This document shows positions 22,061 through 26,203 of a stretch of 64,000 nucleotides of DNA, in pieces. Made by a program: the position numbers and the translations under genes. The stretch comes from Paenibacillus pabuli (GTDB lineage: Bacteria; Bacillota; Bacilli; Paenibacillales; Paenibacillaceae), in NCBI RefSeq assembly GCF_039831995.1, contig NZ_JBDOIO010000003.1:1674001-1738000 (forward strand). The letters are read 5' to 3'. The notes under the pieces were generated by a model. The model saw nothing but the letters and a program-made list of their open reading frames with translations. It ran no database searches and was not told the DNA's origin. Within the stretch, counting starts at the first letter, position 1. Every line of letters begins with the position of its first letter.

Positions 22061-22939
22061 CTATTCATTAAGCAAGGCACGGATAAAGCCCTGCTCCTCG
22101 TCGGTTGGAGCAATCAGCGGAAGACGCACTGAACCAACGTTTAATCCACGCAACGTCAGAGCGTATTTCACTGCAACCGGGTTCGGCAAAGGCTGCGGAC
22201 ACTCAAATAAACCTTTGAACACTGGGAAAAGTTGCTGATGCAATTGGGTTGCTTTTTGTGTGTCTCCCCCAACGAATGCATCAATCATCTGTTTCATCTC
22301 CGCACCGACTATATGACTCGCAACACTGACAATGCCATATGCTCCCACCGTGATTGCTGGTAAACCTGATGCGTCATCTCCCGAGTAAACTTTGAAGTGA
22401 TCGGGTGCACCTGCAGCAACCAGTGTCACTTGCTCCAAGGGAGCACATTCCTTCGTAGCCACGATATTCGGAATCTGAGCCAGGCGAAGCGTAGTGGCAG
22501 TAGACAGGCTTGCTGCGGTACGGCCTGGTACGTTATATAGCATTACAGGCAGCTTGGTTGAGCTCGCAATGGCTTCAAAATGTTTGAACATGCCTTCTTG
22601 GCTTGGTTTGTTGTAATAAGGAACGACCAAAAGGACCCCATCCACACCGACACGTTCAGCTTCTTGTGTCAGATGGATCGAATGGGCAGTATTGTTAGAC
22701 CCTGTTCCGGCAATGATTTTGCATCTTCCTGCAGCATGCTTCACTGCAAACTCAAAAAGCTGCACCTTCTCACTGTCGCTAAGTGTAGGAGATTCACCGG
22801 TCGTACCGGACACCACAAGTGCTTCAGATTTTTGATCTGCAATTAAATAGTCTATAAGCCTTGCAGTTTCCTCCCAATGAATCTCCCCCTGTTCGTTGAA
22901 CGGAGTGACCATTGCTGTAATCAATCTTCCAAAGTCCAA
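22061..22939 (-). CDS. dapA: 4-hydroxy-tetrahydrodipicolinate synthase
   Basis: 292 residues. The class I aldolase signatures are GTTGESPTLS (residues 45-54), YYNKPSQEGM, MLYNVPGRT with the catalytic Tyr, and the Schiff-base Lys in VATKECA. It condenses aspartate semialdehyde with pyruvate, giving the precursor of both diaminopimelate and dipicolinate. The TTG at 22939 (MDFGRLITAMVTPF) is preferred: AAGGAGG lies 8 bases before it, whereas a TTG at 22957 would place the ribosome site inside the protein. It is the last gene of the dpa-dap run, 45 bases after dapG. Confidence 0.95.
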   Translation of the reverse strand: MDFGRLITAMVTPFNEQGEIHWEETARLIDYLIADQKSEALVVSGTTGESPTLSDSEKVQLFEFAVKHAAGRCKIIAGTGSNNTAHSIHLTQEAERVGVDGVLLVVPYYNKPSQEGMFKHFEAIASSTKLPVMLYNVPGRTAASLSTATTLRLAQIPNIVATKECAPLEQVTLVAAGAPDHFKVYSGDDASGLPAITVGAYGIVSVASHIVGAEMKQMIDAFVGGDTQKATQLHQQLFPVFKGLFECPQPLPNPVAVKYALTLRGLNVGSVRLPLIAPTDEEQGFIRALLNE

Positions 22940-22984
22940 TTCGATTTCCTCCTTCAAAACAGGTCTGGCTCCGCACGCTTCAAA

Positions 22985-24202
22985 TTACAAATGAAGTTCG
23001 AACGAGGTGTGAAGCGCCCTCAGGGCCTGAACCATATCTTCTTTTTTTACAAGTACCCAGATGGTTGTGTTCGAATCTGCCGATTGCAAGATCTGAATGT
23101 CAGCCAGTGTTAACGATTCAACGATTCTTGCCATGATACCAGGCACACCGTTAATTCCACCGCCGATCACCGAAACTTTGGCACAGCCGGACAGACTTTG
23201 AGGTTTAAGACCAATCTCTTGCAAAACTTGAATTGCTTTTTCAGAGTCACTGTCGAACACAGTATAGACGACTCCTGAAGGGGTAACATTAATAAAATCA
23301 ACACTAATCGAATTTTCAGCCATTGTTTTGAAGACTTTCAGCTGCAGCCGATCCGCGCCTCCCGGCACATCTACTGTGATCTGGGTTACGTTGCTAACGT
23401 AAGCAATACCCGTCACATAACGATCTACTATGCCTGTCTGCACATCCTGGAATCCTTCCGGATGGGTAACAAGGGTTCCTTCACTGTCTGCAAAAGTGGA
23501 TCGTACGCGTACAGGAATTTGGGATTGCATTGCAATTTCAACTGCTCGGGGGTGAATGACTTTGGCCCCGTGATGCGCCATATTACAGATCTCGGCATAA
23601 CTCACCACAGTTAACGGACGTGCATCCTCCACAATCCGCGGATCAGCGGTCAAAATGCCGTTTACATCGGTATAGATATCCACCATCTCCGCCTGAAGAG
23701 CAGCACCCAATGCTGTAGCTGATGTATCACTGCCGCCACGGCCTAATGTGGTAAAGTCTCCGCTCTCTGTCTGCCCTTGGAAACCCGTAACAATAACAAC
23801 ACGGTTTTTTTGAAGCTCCTCCAGCACACGAACAGGACGGACATCCAAAATCCGGGCATTCCCGAAATTGTCGTCCGTCACAAAGCCTGCCTGCGCACCA
23901 GTCAGCACAGTTGTGGGGATGTTTTCATGTTCAAGCAGACTGCTGAGTGTTGTAGCCGATATGATCTCACCACAGCACAACAATAAATCCTTTTCACGTG
24001 CAGACAGTGAATTACCATTTTGCGCTGCCCAGTCGAGCAATGTATCCGTAGCATATGGTTCGCCCCGGCGGCCCATAGCCGACACAACAATGACAAGACT
24101 CAGTCCTGCCTCAAGTTCACGTTTAATATGACGGAGCACGTGCTCTCTCGCCTGAACCGTAGAAAGCGACGTGCCTCCAAATTTCTGTACCATGATACGC
24201 AT
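22985..24202 (-). CDS. dapG: Aspartate kinase I (DapG type)
   Basis: 405 residues. It begins MRIMVQKFGGTSLS, the kinase signature, with GRGGSDTSA in the catalytic domain and two C-terminal ACT domains (about 265-400). It phosphorylates aspartate, the first step to lysine, diaminopimelate, threonine and methionine. By position next to dapA and the DPA synthase genes it is the DapG isozyme, which is diaminopimelate-sensitive in B. subtilis. The ATG at 24202 follows GGAGG by 7 bases; the longer frame to 24298 runs through remains of asd and has no ribosome site. Confidence 0.94.
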   Translation of the reverse strand: MRIMVQKFGGTSLSTVQAREHVLRHIKRELEAGLSLVIVVSAMGRRGEPYATDTLLDWAAQNGNSLSAREKDLLLCCGEIISATTLSSLLEHENIPTTVLTGAQAGFVTDDNFGNARILDVRPVRVLEELQKNRVVIVTGFQGQTESGDFTTLGRGGSDTSATALGAALQAEMVDIYTDVNGILTADPRIVEDARPLTVVSYAEICNMAHHGAKVIHPRAVEIAMQSQIPVRVRSTFADSEGTLVTHPEGFQDVQTGIVDRYVTGIAYVSNVTQITVDVPGGADRLQLKVFKTMAENSISVDFINVTPSGVVYTVFDSDSEKAIQVLQEIGLKPQSLSGCAKVSVIGGGINGVPGIMARIVESLTLADIQILQSADSNTTIWVLVKKEDMVQALRALHTSFELHL

Positions 24203-24281
24203 CTTAATTCCTCCATTTGTGTACGCAAGAAGACTGGACACGGTCAAATCAACAAATGGATCAACCCAGGGAGCGTTCCGA

Positions 24282-24600
24282 TGCAATAAATTCAGCAATG
24301 ATTACGACATTATATGCCGTTTTTCCTCTGTAGATTGCTTGCTCTAAGCAATTCACTAACTGAAGGTCGGTTTATCACCGATCACGACATGCATATCTCC
24401 ATGAACGCATCCCGCTTGCGATCAATTCGGTGCAAGCAGGAATGCCCTTCAACGACAGGAACGCGTACACAGGAAGCTGTTAAACTTCCGACGTATCGTC
24501 CCCCATGATTTTCTTTGTCTAACCTAACCAAGTTCATTTCTTCATGCGTATAACCGTTATCCTGGAACTTCTCCACAGCGAAATCCAACCCGTAAACAAA
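24282..24600 (-). pseudogene. asd: Decayed remnant of asd (aspartate-semialdehyde dehydrogenase)
   Basis: The 420 bp gap between dpaB and dapG is where asd stands in B. subtilis. On the minus strand 24600-24385 reads VEKFQDNGYTHEEMNLV, then TASCVRVPVVEGHS, then IDRKRDA. These match the Asd segments DKFQDNGYTFEEM, ATCVRLPIQTGHS and IDRDDA as I recall them. After a stop at 24382-24384 the same frame continues with SVSELLR (cf. VSDNLLKG). A shifted frame at 24335-24282 then reads IYRGKTAYNVVIIAEFI (cf. KGAAWNAVQIAE). About 220 N-terminal residues, including the catalytic Cys, and roughly 55 internal residues are gone. A short 68-codon ORF here is therefore not a gene. A working asd must lie elsewhere. 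Confidence 0.78.
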
Positions 24601-24623
24601 CGTTAAACTTGGTCAATAAACGA

Positions 24624-25220
24624 TTAAGCCTGTGCAGAGCGTTCTACGATCATCGGCTGTAACTGTTGACCTTCCAGTGCACTCCAGCATGCCTCCGGAA
24701 TAAGTTCCATCTTTGCCACTAACGAGTTTGGTTTCTTCACCGGATCATCCTGCCCGAACGGTACAAAGTAAATATATTTTGCTACAAGCAGTTTGGCGAT
24801 GTTCGCGGCATTCAGTCCCAGGCCATCATTTGTGGAGATGGCAAGCACTACCGGACGCTGATTCCGCATCTGGGCTTTGGCTGCCATCAGCACAGGGCTA
24901 TCGGTCATCGCATTAGCCAGCTTACTCGTTGTGTTCCCTGTGCAGGGAGCAATTACGAGCACATCAAGCAATTTGGATGGCCCCAGCGGTTCCGCCTCAA
25001 CAATTGTAGAAATAATATCATTCCCAGTTATATCTTTCAACTGTTTTTGCCAGTTCTGAGCCGTACCAAAGCGCGTATCCGTTGTTAAAACCGAATTGGA
25101 AATAATCGGAACGACATTCGCACCCTCAGCCACAAACCGGCTAATTACCGGCATAACCTCTTCAAACGTACAATGAGAACCTGTAATCGCATAACCTACC
25201 GTTTTACCCTTCCAGTTCAT
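24624..25220 (-). CDS. dpaB: Dipicolinate synthase subunit B
   Basis: 198 residues, a flavoprotein-like fold (VGYAITGSHCTFEEVMPVIS, VIAPCTGNTTSKLANAMTDS). With DpaA it oxidises the tetrahydrodipicolinate intermediate to dipicolinic acid in the mother cell; the product is loaded into the spore core with calcium. The ATG overlaps the dpaA TGA (ATGA) and has GGGAGG upstream, so the subunits are translationally coupled. It is followed by the asd remnant and dapG. It is also known as spoVFB. Confidence 0.95.
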   Translation of the reverse strand: MNWKGKTVGYAITGSHCTFEEVMPVISRFVAEGANVVPIISNSVLTTDTRFGTAQNWQKQLKDITGNDIISTIVEAEPLGPSKLLDVLVIAPCTGNTTSKLANAMTDSPVLMAAKAQMRNQRPVVLAISTNDGLGLNAANIAKLLVAKYIYFVPFGQDDPVKKPNSLVAKMELIPEACWSALEGQQLQPMIVERSAQA

Positions 25221-26116
25221 TGTTCAACCTCCCGTGCGTTTTGTTCTTCCAAAAGCAAACGGATCAACGCGTCGGCAATAATGCCGCCAGCCGTTTTGGG
25301 AGCAACAATGCCGGGGAGGCCTGGCGCTAGAAGCGCTTTAATGCCGCGTTTTTCAGCATATCTGAAATCACAGCCGCCAGGAGCGGATGCGAGGTCGATA
25401 ATGACTGCTTTTTGAGGCATTCTGGACAGGATTTGTGCTGTGATTATCATAGTCGGTATCGTATTAAAAAGCAAGTCAACTGCCCCGGTTTGAGCGGCCA
25501 AATCCGTTGTCATGAAAGGCTTCCAGCCCATGATGTTAGCCCGAGCCGCATCCTCTTCCCGCCTGATTCCCACCCGTACATTTGCCCCAAGACCCTGGAG
25601 CGTTTTGGCCATTGTGAATCCTGTTCGGCCGAGCCCAAGCACAATACATTCCGAGCCGTGGATCGTGAAGTCCGTCTCCCGAATCGCCATCGCGACCGCT
25701 CCCTCAGCTGTCGGGATCGAGTTGAAGAGCGCGATGTCATCACGATCCAGCACTTCAATCAGCCGTAAGCCGTTATCCACGCACAACTCACGCAAAAATG
25801 GCTTTGCCATTCCTGTGAAAACAATACAATGCTCTGGCAATGCCGCTATCTGTTCTTTTTTCAGGAAAATCGGCTGGTCACTGAATGAGGTGCTCACTTT
25901 CCCCTGATCATCACAACCAACTACGGGGAGCACCACCACATCCGCGGATGCCAACACCTCATCCTCCAGCTCATGATATTCGATCCCCGAAATAGGACGC
26001 TCCAGCTTGTCGAAACCGACCACACTTACCGTGGCATCCAGCTCTGCGCATTTTTGAATGACTTCAAGCTGCCGCGCATCTCCGCCCAGGACTACTATCC
26101 GGACTCCGGTCAGCAT
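25217..26116 (-). CDS. dpaA: Dipicolinate synthase subunit A
   Basis: 299 residues with two Rossmann-like halves: VRIVVLGGDARQLE at the N-terminus and the NAD(P)-binding CIVLGLGRTGFTMAKTLQGL from about residue 155. It is the dehydrogenase subunit of DPA synthase. The ATG at 26116 follows GGAG by 10 bases and gives the usual family length; the longer frame to 26185 would read through the promoter. A SigK-like promoter at 26150-26178 fits the known mother-cell control of spoVF. Also known as spoVFA. Confidence 0.95.
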   Translation of the reverse strand: MLTGVRIVVLGGDARQLEVIQKCAELDATVSVVGFDKLERPISGIEYHELEDEVLASADVVVLPVVGCDDQGKVSTSFSDQPIFLKKEQIAALPEHCIVFTGMAKPFLRELCVDNGLRLIEVLDRDDIALFNSIPTAEGAVAMAIRETDFTIHGSECIVLGLGRTGFTMAKTLQGLGANVRVGIRREEDAARANIMGWKPFMTTDLAAQTGAVDLLFNTIPTMIITAQILSRMPQKAVIIDLASAPGGCDFRYAEKRGIKALLAPGLPGIVAPKTAGGIIADALIRLLLEEQNAREVEQ

Positions 26117-26149
26117 CGGGACGTCACTCCTTTCACCACATGTATGCCT

Positions 26150-26178
26150 TATCGTATGCAGTGGCCCACAGGGGGGTG
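26150..26178 (-). promoter_or_regulatory. Putative SigK promoter of dpaA-dpaB
   Basis: Minus strand: CACC (26175-26178) fits the SigK -35 mACm, 16 bp spacer, CATACGATA (26150-26158) fits CATAnnnTA at every fixed position. It lies about 35 bp before the dpaA ATG. SigK control of spoVF is established in B. subtilis. Confidence 0.72.
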
Positions 26179-26203
26179 AAAACATTTCCTTTCTCTTCTC
26201 TAA

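Follow-up and report, generated by a model that had tools for sequence, protein, structure and literature searches.

Pseudogenes in bacteria are commonly held to disappear quickly, and there are cases elsewhere in which bacterial pseudogene DNA has been re-used as regulatory sequence. Aspartate-semialdehyde dehydrogenase (ASADH, here Asd) falls into three branches, Gram-negative, Gram-positive and archaeal/fungal, the last of which has low activity (PMC3276109), and non-orthologous displacement in amino-acid biosynthesis has been described with over 100 alternative enzymes for 33 reactions (PMC9026213). Here we analyze a locus of Paenibacillus pabuli at which a dead asd gene of the Gram-positive type (asd_B), displaced by another enzyme, has probably been re-used in part as a cis-regulatory leader of dapG, a reading to which we give a probability of about 0.8.

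The P. pabuli genome (6.95 Mb, 5 contigs, completeness 100) carries dpaA, dpaB, dapG and dapA on the minus strand of the window, the stretch of 64,000 nucleotides that was analyzed and to which all positions refer unless a contig is named. In a profile search all four genes passed their curated models (Table 1), and the gap between dpaB and dapG measured 421 bp. Elsewhere in the genome there is another aspartokinase gene as well as another gene of the dapA type, both scoring over cut-off, and so dapG-dapA need not be vegetatively essential. Another distant match to the dapA family (G000:C3:356651-357496, 102 bits, below cut-off) contains an internal TAG and is possibly another broken gene.

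Table 1. Features of the dpaA-dapA locus of P. pabuli; ratios are changes per site relative to fourfold sites of dpaB and dapG.
Feature	Positions	Strand	Evidence
dpaA, dipicolinate synthase subunit A	25217..26185	(-)	TIGR02853, 383 bits, cut-off 320
dpaB, dipicolinate synthase subunit B	24624..25220	(-)	NCBIfam TIGR02852, 301 bits, cut-off 229
Spacer after dpaB	24570..24623	(-)	Ratio 0.89, 8 usable columns only
asd relic piece 1 (KFQDNGYTHEEM)	24535..24570	(-)	TIGR01296 match; constrained block 24563-24535 (block 1), ratio 0.225
asd relic piece 2, once ETKKIMGDD, now in another frame	24493..24521	(-)	Ratio 0.133, most constrained relic block (block 2)
asd relic piece 3 (CVRVPVVEGHS)	24436..24471	(-)	Constrained; ratio 0.244 over 24467-24436
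Hairpin TCCTGCTTGC - variable loop - GCAAGCRGGA	24410..24441	(-)	Found in 45/48 clade species
Small inverted repeat ACGGCAT-ATA-ATGTCGT over asd C-terminal codons	24304..24320	(-)	Weak; some species only
asd relic C-terminus (GKTAYNVVIIAEFIASER)	24264..24326	(-)	Constrained; ratio 0.187 over 24315-24265
dapG leader with inverted repeat TCCATTTGT (24260-24252) / ACAAATGGA (24220-24212)	24203..24264	(-)	Overlaps ribosome-binding site
dapG, aspartate kinase	22985..24202	(-)	NCBIfam NF006068, 593 bits, cut-off 474
dapA, 4-hydroxy-tetrahydrodipicolinate synthase	22061..22957	(-)	TIGR00674, 331 bits, cut-off 206

A preliminary description of this DNA had reported recognizable Asd pieces between dpaB and dapG, within 24282..24600, and had proposed a translated search with Asd. 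Such searches confirmed that, by sequence similarity, the gap contains the broken C-terminal part of asd_B. The Pfam Asd C-terminal domain matched at 24421-24573 (23.1 bits, whole-genome E 2.6e-4, below the curated cut-off), and a 68-aa frame at 24382-24588(-) matched positions 204-258 of TIGR01296 (E 6.3e-7; its 28.8 bits are those of a fragment, far under the full-length cut-off). When the 21 intact asd_B proteins of the genus were run by tblastn against 95 short gaps, without low-complexity filter or composition adjustment, the P. pabuli gap aligned to Asd residues 208-266 with an E value, relative to the 95-gap set, of 6.6e-14. None of the 95 gaps gave an Asd match at E 1e-2 once reversed, which rules out chance similarity. 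The sequence KFQDNGYTHEEM at 24570-24535 and CVRVPVVEGHS at 24471-24439 share one open frame, the stretch matching ETKKIMGDD sits between them in another frame, and GKTAYNVVIIAE followed by FIASER could be read directly at 24326-24273, where intact relatives have DKFQDNGYTLEEMKMVRETKKI and DNLQKGAAWNAVQIAEIIASER; in addition, the intact asd of G047, G030, G031 and G065 terminates with codons like those of the relic C-terminus. The remnant extends slightly past the span first proposed, to about 24264-24273. Similarity to the N-terminal half of Asd was not found in the P. pabuli gap. The similarity to asd_B lies at the place and in the order expected of a pseudogene, and coding capacity is destroyed, the pieces lying in different frames and the frames being broken differently across species.

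The preliminary description had also held that asd decayed in place with a functional copy elsewhere, and a full asd was indeed found about 370 kb from the relic, at C3:1325916-1326962. This sole intact Asd found in the genome, asd_EA, encodes a protein that scored 346.7 bits against the curated cut-off of 301.2 for TIGR00978 and so belongs to that family. The asd_B model matched just part of the asd_EA gene and the relic in this genome, and the remaining domain match is argC. The solved structures closest to the asd_EA protein are 3hsk, 5jw6 and 1ys4, and its stretches NCS, QAISGAG and RVPVxDGH, which we take to contain active-site residues, align with 3hsk. Given its family membership, asd_EA presumably supplies aspartate semialdehyde, and on the same family assignments the Asd swap in P. 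pabuli is one between the Gram-positive and archaeal/fungal branches. Internal stop symbols appear in 20 asd_EA alignment rows, 19 of them in the genus; since a whole-genome search gave an open 361-aa frame without stops for each of these 19 genes, the symbols were taken as the alignment reaching upstream of the start. Decay in place is borne out by the homology, by the complementary distribution given below and by the short gap common to relatives, but what stands elsewhere is no copy of the lost gene, being a putative Asd of another branch. That this other Asd was present before the decay, as had been implied, is suggested by 73 genomes from other parts of the order, in which both enzymes occur, a state not seen in this lineage.

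Across 75 genomes of the genus, 21 passed the asd_B model and 54 the asd_EA model, and none passed both. The other 324 genomes of the order, at E 1e-60, comprised 133 with asd_EA only, 118 with asd_B only, 73 with both and none with neither. Presence is therefore complementary within the genus; outside it no genome is without an Asd, but the 73 with both indicate that the two enzymes can live together. Four asd_B species (G030, G031, G047 and G065) have another intact asd_B (435-447 bits) away from the dpaB-dapG cluster. In the 74 genomes of the genus with dpaB, the dpaB–dapG gap spans 1194-1391 bp in the 21 species with asd_B, whereas in the remaining 53 it is 124-495 bp; the 75th genome, G038, is a 92% complete draft of an asd_EA species with no real dpaB match (none at E 1e-30). 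Among the short gaps, those with Asd relic similarity numbered 46 of 53 inside the genus and 9 of 42 in the family's other genera. Throughout the 55 relic-bearing gaps, Asd matches at E 1e-2 began only from residue 175 onward, of about 345, so that the dapG-proximal side of asd survives, also in separate losses, a pattern that would fit a requirement for some element beside dapG, at the 3′ end of asd. The wider comparison drew on 61 chosen genomes (16 with both enzymes and 44 with asd_EA only, plus G038), and 53 gaps (44 from asd_EA-only and 9 from both-enzyme genomes) were compared from the 60 with dpaB. Over the resulting 127 loci a Dollo count gave 17 losses of asd_B, 11 of them with a relic, and equal-cost parsimony, which allows regain, gave 9 changes; because the genomes were a chosen sample, these counts apply to the 127 loci rather than to the order at large. 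Judged from these comparisons, asd_B was displaced and the old gene decayed where it stood, and this happened in several lineages. Two loci in other genomes, L207 (G099) and L208 (G116), had been candidates for a near-intact asd on account of a 1155-bp dpaB–dapG gap; this gap was found to contain a 304-aa open frame that by eye is dpaA-like, with neither asd nor relic.

The order of events behind this distribution can be read in two ways. The genus may descend from an ancestor with both enzymes and have undergone reciprocal loss, rather than having received asd_EA in separate arrivals. Consistent with such an ancestor are the 73 of 324 genomes outside the genus that hold both enzymes, the position of asd_B between dpaB and dapG in 9/9 of the both-enzyme genomes of the family that were compared (16 such genomes in the family), and one near-asd_EA gene that G014 has in common with G000 and G010, albeit on the opposite side of asd_EA. 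Otherwise, however, the neighbors of asd_EA, compared in 11 genomes, differ among the four lineages of the genus that have it, and these four are not grouped in the asd_EA tree, whose deep nodes are, however, weakly supported. The asd_EA neighborhoods would thus lean toward several arrivals, and we regard reciprocal loss as a real possibility with somewhat less than an even chance.

Forty-eight asd_EA species, P. pabuli among them, form one clade both in the tree of dpaB and dapG and in the asd_EA tree (83 genes). The comparison with relatives that had been proposed at the outset showed a short relic-bearing gap common to them: gap length in the clade was 232-434 bp, and 45 of the 48 gaps gave an Asd match. 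A terminator-like hairpin after dpaB was found at 24 of 26 non-clade loci of the genus (21 asd_B species together with G044, G009 and G023; none in G014 or G074) versus 1 of 48 clade gaps, where it lies elsewhere in the gap. For asd_B loci the scan took in about 200 nt following dpaB, and for short gaps their full length; the expectation from shuffles, which preserve base composition only, was 0.9/26 outside the clade and 4.9/48 within it. In G017 and G022 the terminator-like hairpin lies about 130 nt after dpaB. Likewise, the dpaB-asd spacer of G047 is recognizable in G044 and G009, and no similarity to it was detected in the six clade species tested or at 24570..24623 in P. pabuli. By these comparisons the wreck of the clade included loss of the terminator region, the spacer and the N-terminal half. 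If instead the 48 species had each lost asd_B independently and recently, this would accord with the separate losses that do occur elsewhere (17 by the Dollo count over 127 loci), among them those of G044+G009+G023, of G014 and of G074; yet the 48 species form one clade, relic similarity is present in 45 of the 48 gaps, the species have blocks in common, and the G047 spacer is unrecognizable in all six species tested, and we consider such repeated loss highly improbable. Exact relic block 2 occurs in 20 database records, all labeled Paenibacillus and including P. amylolyticus, xylanexedens, taichungensis, tundrae, illinoisensis and polysaccharolyticus, and it lies between dpaB and dapG in 19 of them, the other (L264) being a short stretch that shows dpaB only. 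One record with this block of the 48-species clade, L265, is titled Paenibacillus polymyxa ISL-58, a label that would be wrong if P. polymyxa belongs, as we guess, to the asd_B group of the genus.

Because bacterial pseudogenes are thought to be short-lived, near-unchanged pieces across a clade of 48 species need explaining. Fitch changes per site were counted over 45 clade species and set against a mean of 4.91 at the 247 fourfold sites in dpaB and dapG, which are perhaps not strictly neutral, on a tree built from dpaB and dapG themselves; this count omitted G010 and G011 (strongly diverged) and G054 (short dapG), and a second count covered all 48. The results showed that the relic stretches (Table 1), the hairpin stem (arms 0.041 and 0.081) and the dapG leader (0.069; no change in 45 of 62 columns) all lie at 4–24% of the fourfold-site rate, and that the hairpin loop changes at 1.12 of it; the middle stretch 24400-24325 was intermediate (0.455, 17 usable columns). 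The picture was unchanged with all 48 species, where the blocks had 0.4-1.5, the spacer after dpaB 4.6-5.1 and fourfold sites 5.4 changes per site. Within block 2, 19 of 29 columns were without any change in the 45 species, and 40 of the 48 match their own consensus with at most 3 mismatches of 28. A plain neutral relic, in which displaced asd_B is simply rotting and seems conserved because it is young or the alignment is biased, the ribosome-binding region of dapG being the sole functional part, would account for the varying gap lengths (232-434 bp), for the loss of the middle in several species (for example G006, G005, G048, G051 and G069) and for the strong divergence of the blocks in G010 and G011, whose block 2 differs at 9 of 28 positions. 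It is nevertheless unlikely, since one and the same alignment has loop and spacer at about the fourfold rate and relic, arms and leader at 0.04-0.24 of it, in the 45-species and 48-species counts alike, and since block 2 is so widely kept.

The changes bear no mark of a kept peptide. By old codon phase they amount to 0.38/0.38/0.25 per site in block 2 and 1.33/0.56/1.22 in block 1, compared with 0.50/0.11/2.00 for the 28 codons over both blocks, and 1.00/0.33/1.56 for the block-2 codons, in the 21 intact genes (fourfold mean 3.24). Old third positions of block 2 thus change at 0.25 against a fourfold mean of 4.91, and the same codons in the living asd of relatives at 1.56 against 3.24. No reading frame is kept across the clade, the frames through block 2 being broken at different places. 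A new small protein gene could be imagined in the 68-aa frame at 24382-24588, which is open in P. pabuli, but the broken frames and the absence of codon phase in block 2 rule it out for practical purposes. Uneven rates, absent codon phase and variously broken frames together point to selection on DNA or RNA rather than on a peptide, and we take these rates to show that, in the clade of 48 species, constraint acts on parts of the relic at the level of DNA. The word fossil, used in the preliminary description, is accordingly apt for a relic of asd but tells half the story. As a genome-wide motif block 2 was found in one place in its own genome at up to 3 mismatches, and a regulon motif was rejected on this ground.

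The hairpin is a conserved stem around a neutral loop (arms 0.04-0.08, loop 1.12), as expected of a leader. Its 10-bp stem was found with at most 2/20 mismatches in 45 of the 48 clade species, being missing in G006, G010 and G011, and was not found in 30 intact asd loci, each of which had at least 5/20 mismatches. Pairing was complete (320/320 cells in 32 distinct rows), a figure that is partly so by construction because the 45 hairpin rows were picked by motif; the rates and the alifold rows were not motif-selected, and alifold recovered the hairpin unprompted from 27 non-redundant rows. Compensatory changes were not seen, 0/10 pairs varying on both sides and 5 varying on one side with the pair kept. 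The second stem, in the dapG leader, has 9-bp arms in 44 of the 48 species and 7-bp arms in 47, and is older than the wreck, because relatives that retain asd (G047, G030, G031 and G065) carry it as well. A scan of positions 23900-24900 against Rfam gave no family, its one match (E 2.3, below the gathering score) lying on the opposite strand inside dpaB, and a known riboswitch or leader family was therefore set aside. A scan for sigma-A promoters with a hand-entered weight matrix gave no convincing candidate in the 48 species, and a consensus tool found none in the gap. One weak candidate over the asd C-terminal codons (alignment columns 416-418) recurred among the four best in 30 of the 48 species, and the best gap score was reached by 59% of shuffles on average. 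In other genera, L222 (G284), L223 (G330) and L247 (G328) have a different G+C-rich inverted repeat before dapG, of the form GGCCAGGCT..AGCCGGCCGTTTC; dapG leaders seem to differ between genera.

These observations can be joined as follows. An asd_B gene once stood between dpaB and dapG, and asd_EA, at another locus, would have taken over the supply of aspartate semialdehyde. By comparison with relatives, the ancestor of the clade lost the N-terminal half of asd along with the dpaB-asd spacer and the terminator-like hairpin of dpaB, probably in one or a few deletions. The 3′ part of asd stayed, and pieces of it, as the rate differences show, came under selection as DNA or RNA and not as protein. 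Most likely this part now serves as control region and 5′ leader of dapG-dapA, which would consist of the relic blocks upstream, the hairpin born of the wreck and the older stem over the dapG ribosome-binding site, and mother-cell transcription of dpaAB probably also reads through into dapG-dapA. Whereas the constraint is seen directly in the rates, the regulatory role is what we infer from it. Speaking against re-use are the want of a convincing sigma-A promoter, of an Rfam match and of two-sided pair changes in the hairpin, the three species that lack the hairpin, the divergent block 2 of G010 and G011, and the intermediate rate of the middle stretch; the additional aspartokinase and dapA-type gene weigh against a simple argument from an essential promoter. 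In its wider form, in which a displaced dead metabolic gene was kept as the control region of its neighbor, with stretches of coding DNA frozen in 46 Paenibacillus species (the clade without G010 and G011) and a new hairpin in 45, the proposal is one that we favor by a narrow balance.

A limited literature search, short of a full-text survey, found no report of asd displacement in Paenibacillus, of such re-use for asd or dapG, or of leader control of dapG. Within one order the stages of an enzyme swap can be followed through co-residence, truncation, deep relic and erasure, and the locus offers a testable case of dead bacterial coding DNA taking on a regulatory job. Both the relic and the operon genes that 21 relatives keep intact fall within asd_B (TIGR01296, Gram-positive-branch ASADH), but the relic is without the N-terminal half and without an intact frame. 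The intact P. pabuli enzyme is a member of asd_EA (TIGR00978, archaeal/fungal-branch ASADH), and differs from that branch in that its gene is bacterial and located outside the dap cluster. As in the non-orthologous gene displacement treated in PMC9026213, a member of another branch fills the role and occurrence is complementary across genomes; unlike those cases, the relic of the displaced gene has here kept its position in the operon, and the order contains co-resident as well as truncated and deeply decayed stages. With the bacterial pseudogenes whose DNA has been re-used as regulatory sequence, this locus has in common that dead coding DNA is under constraint although no reading frame is kept.
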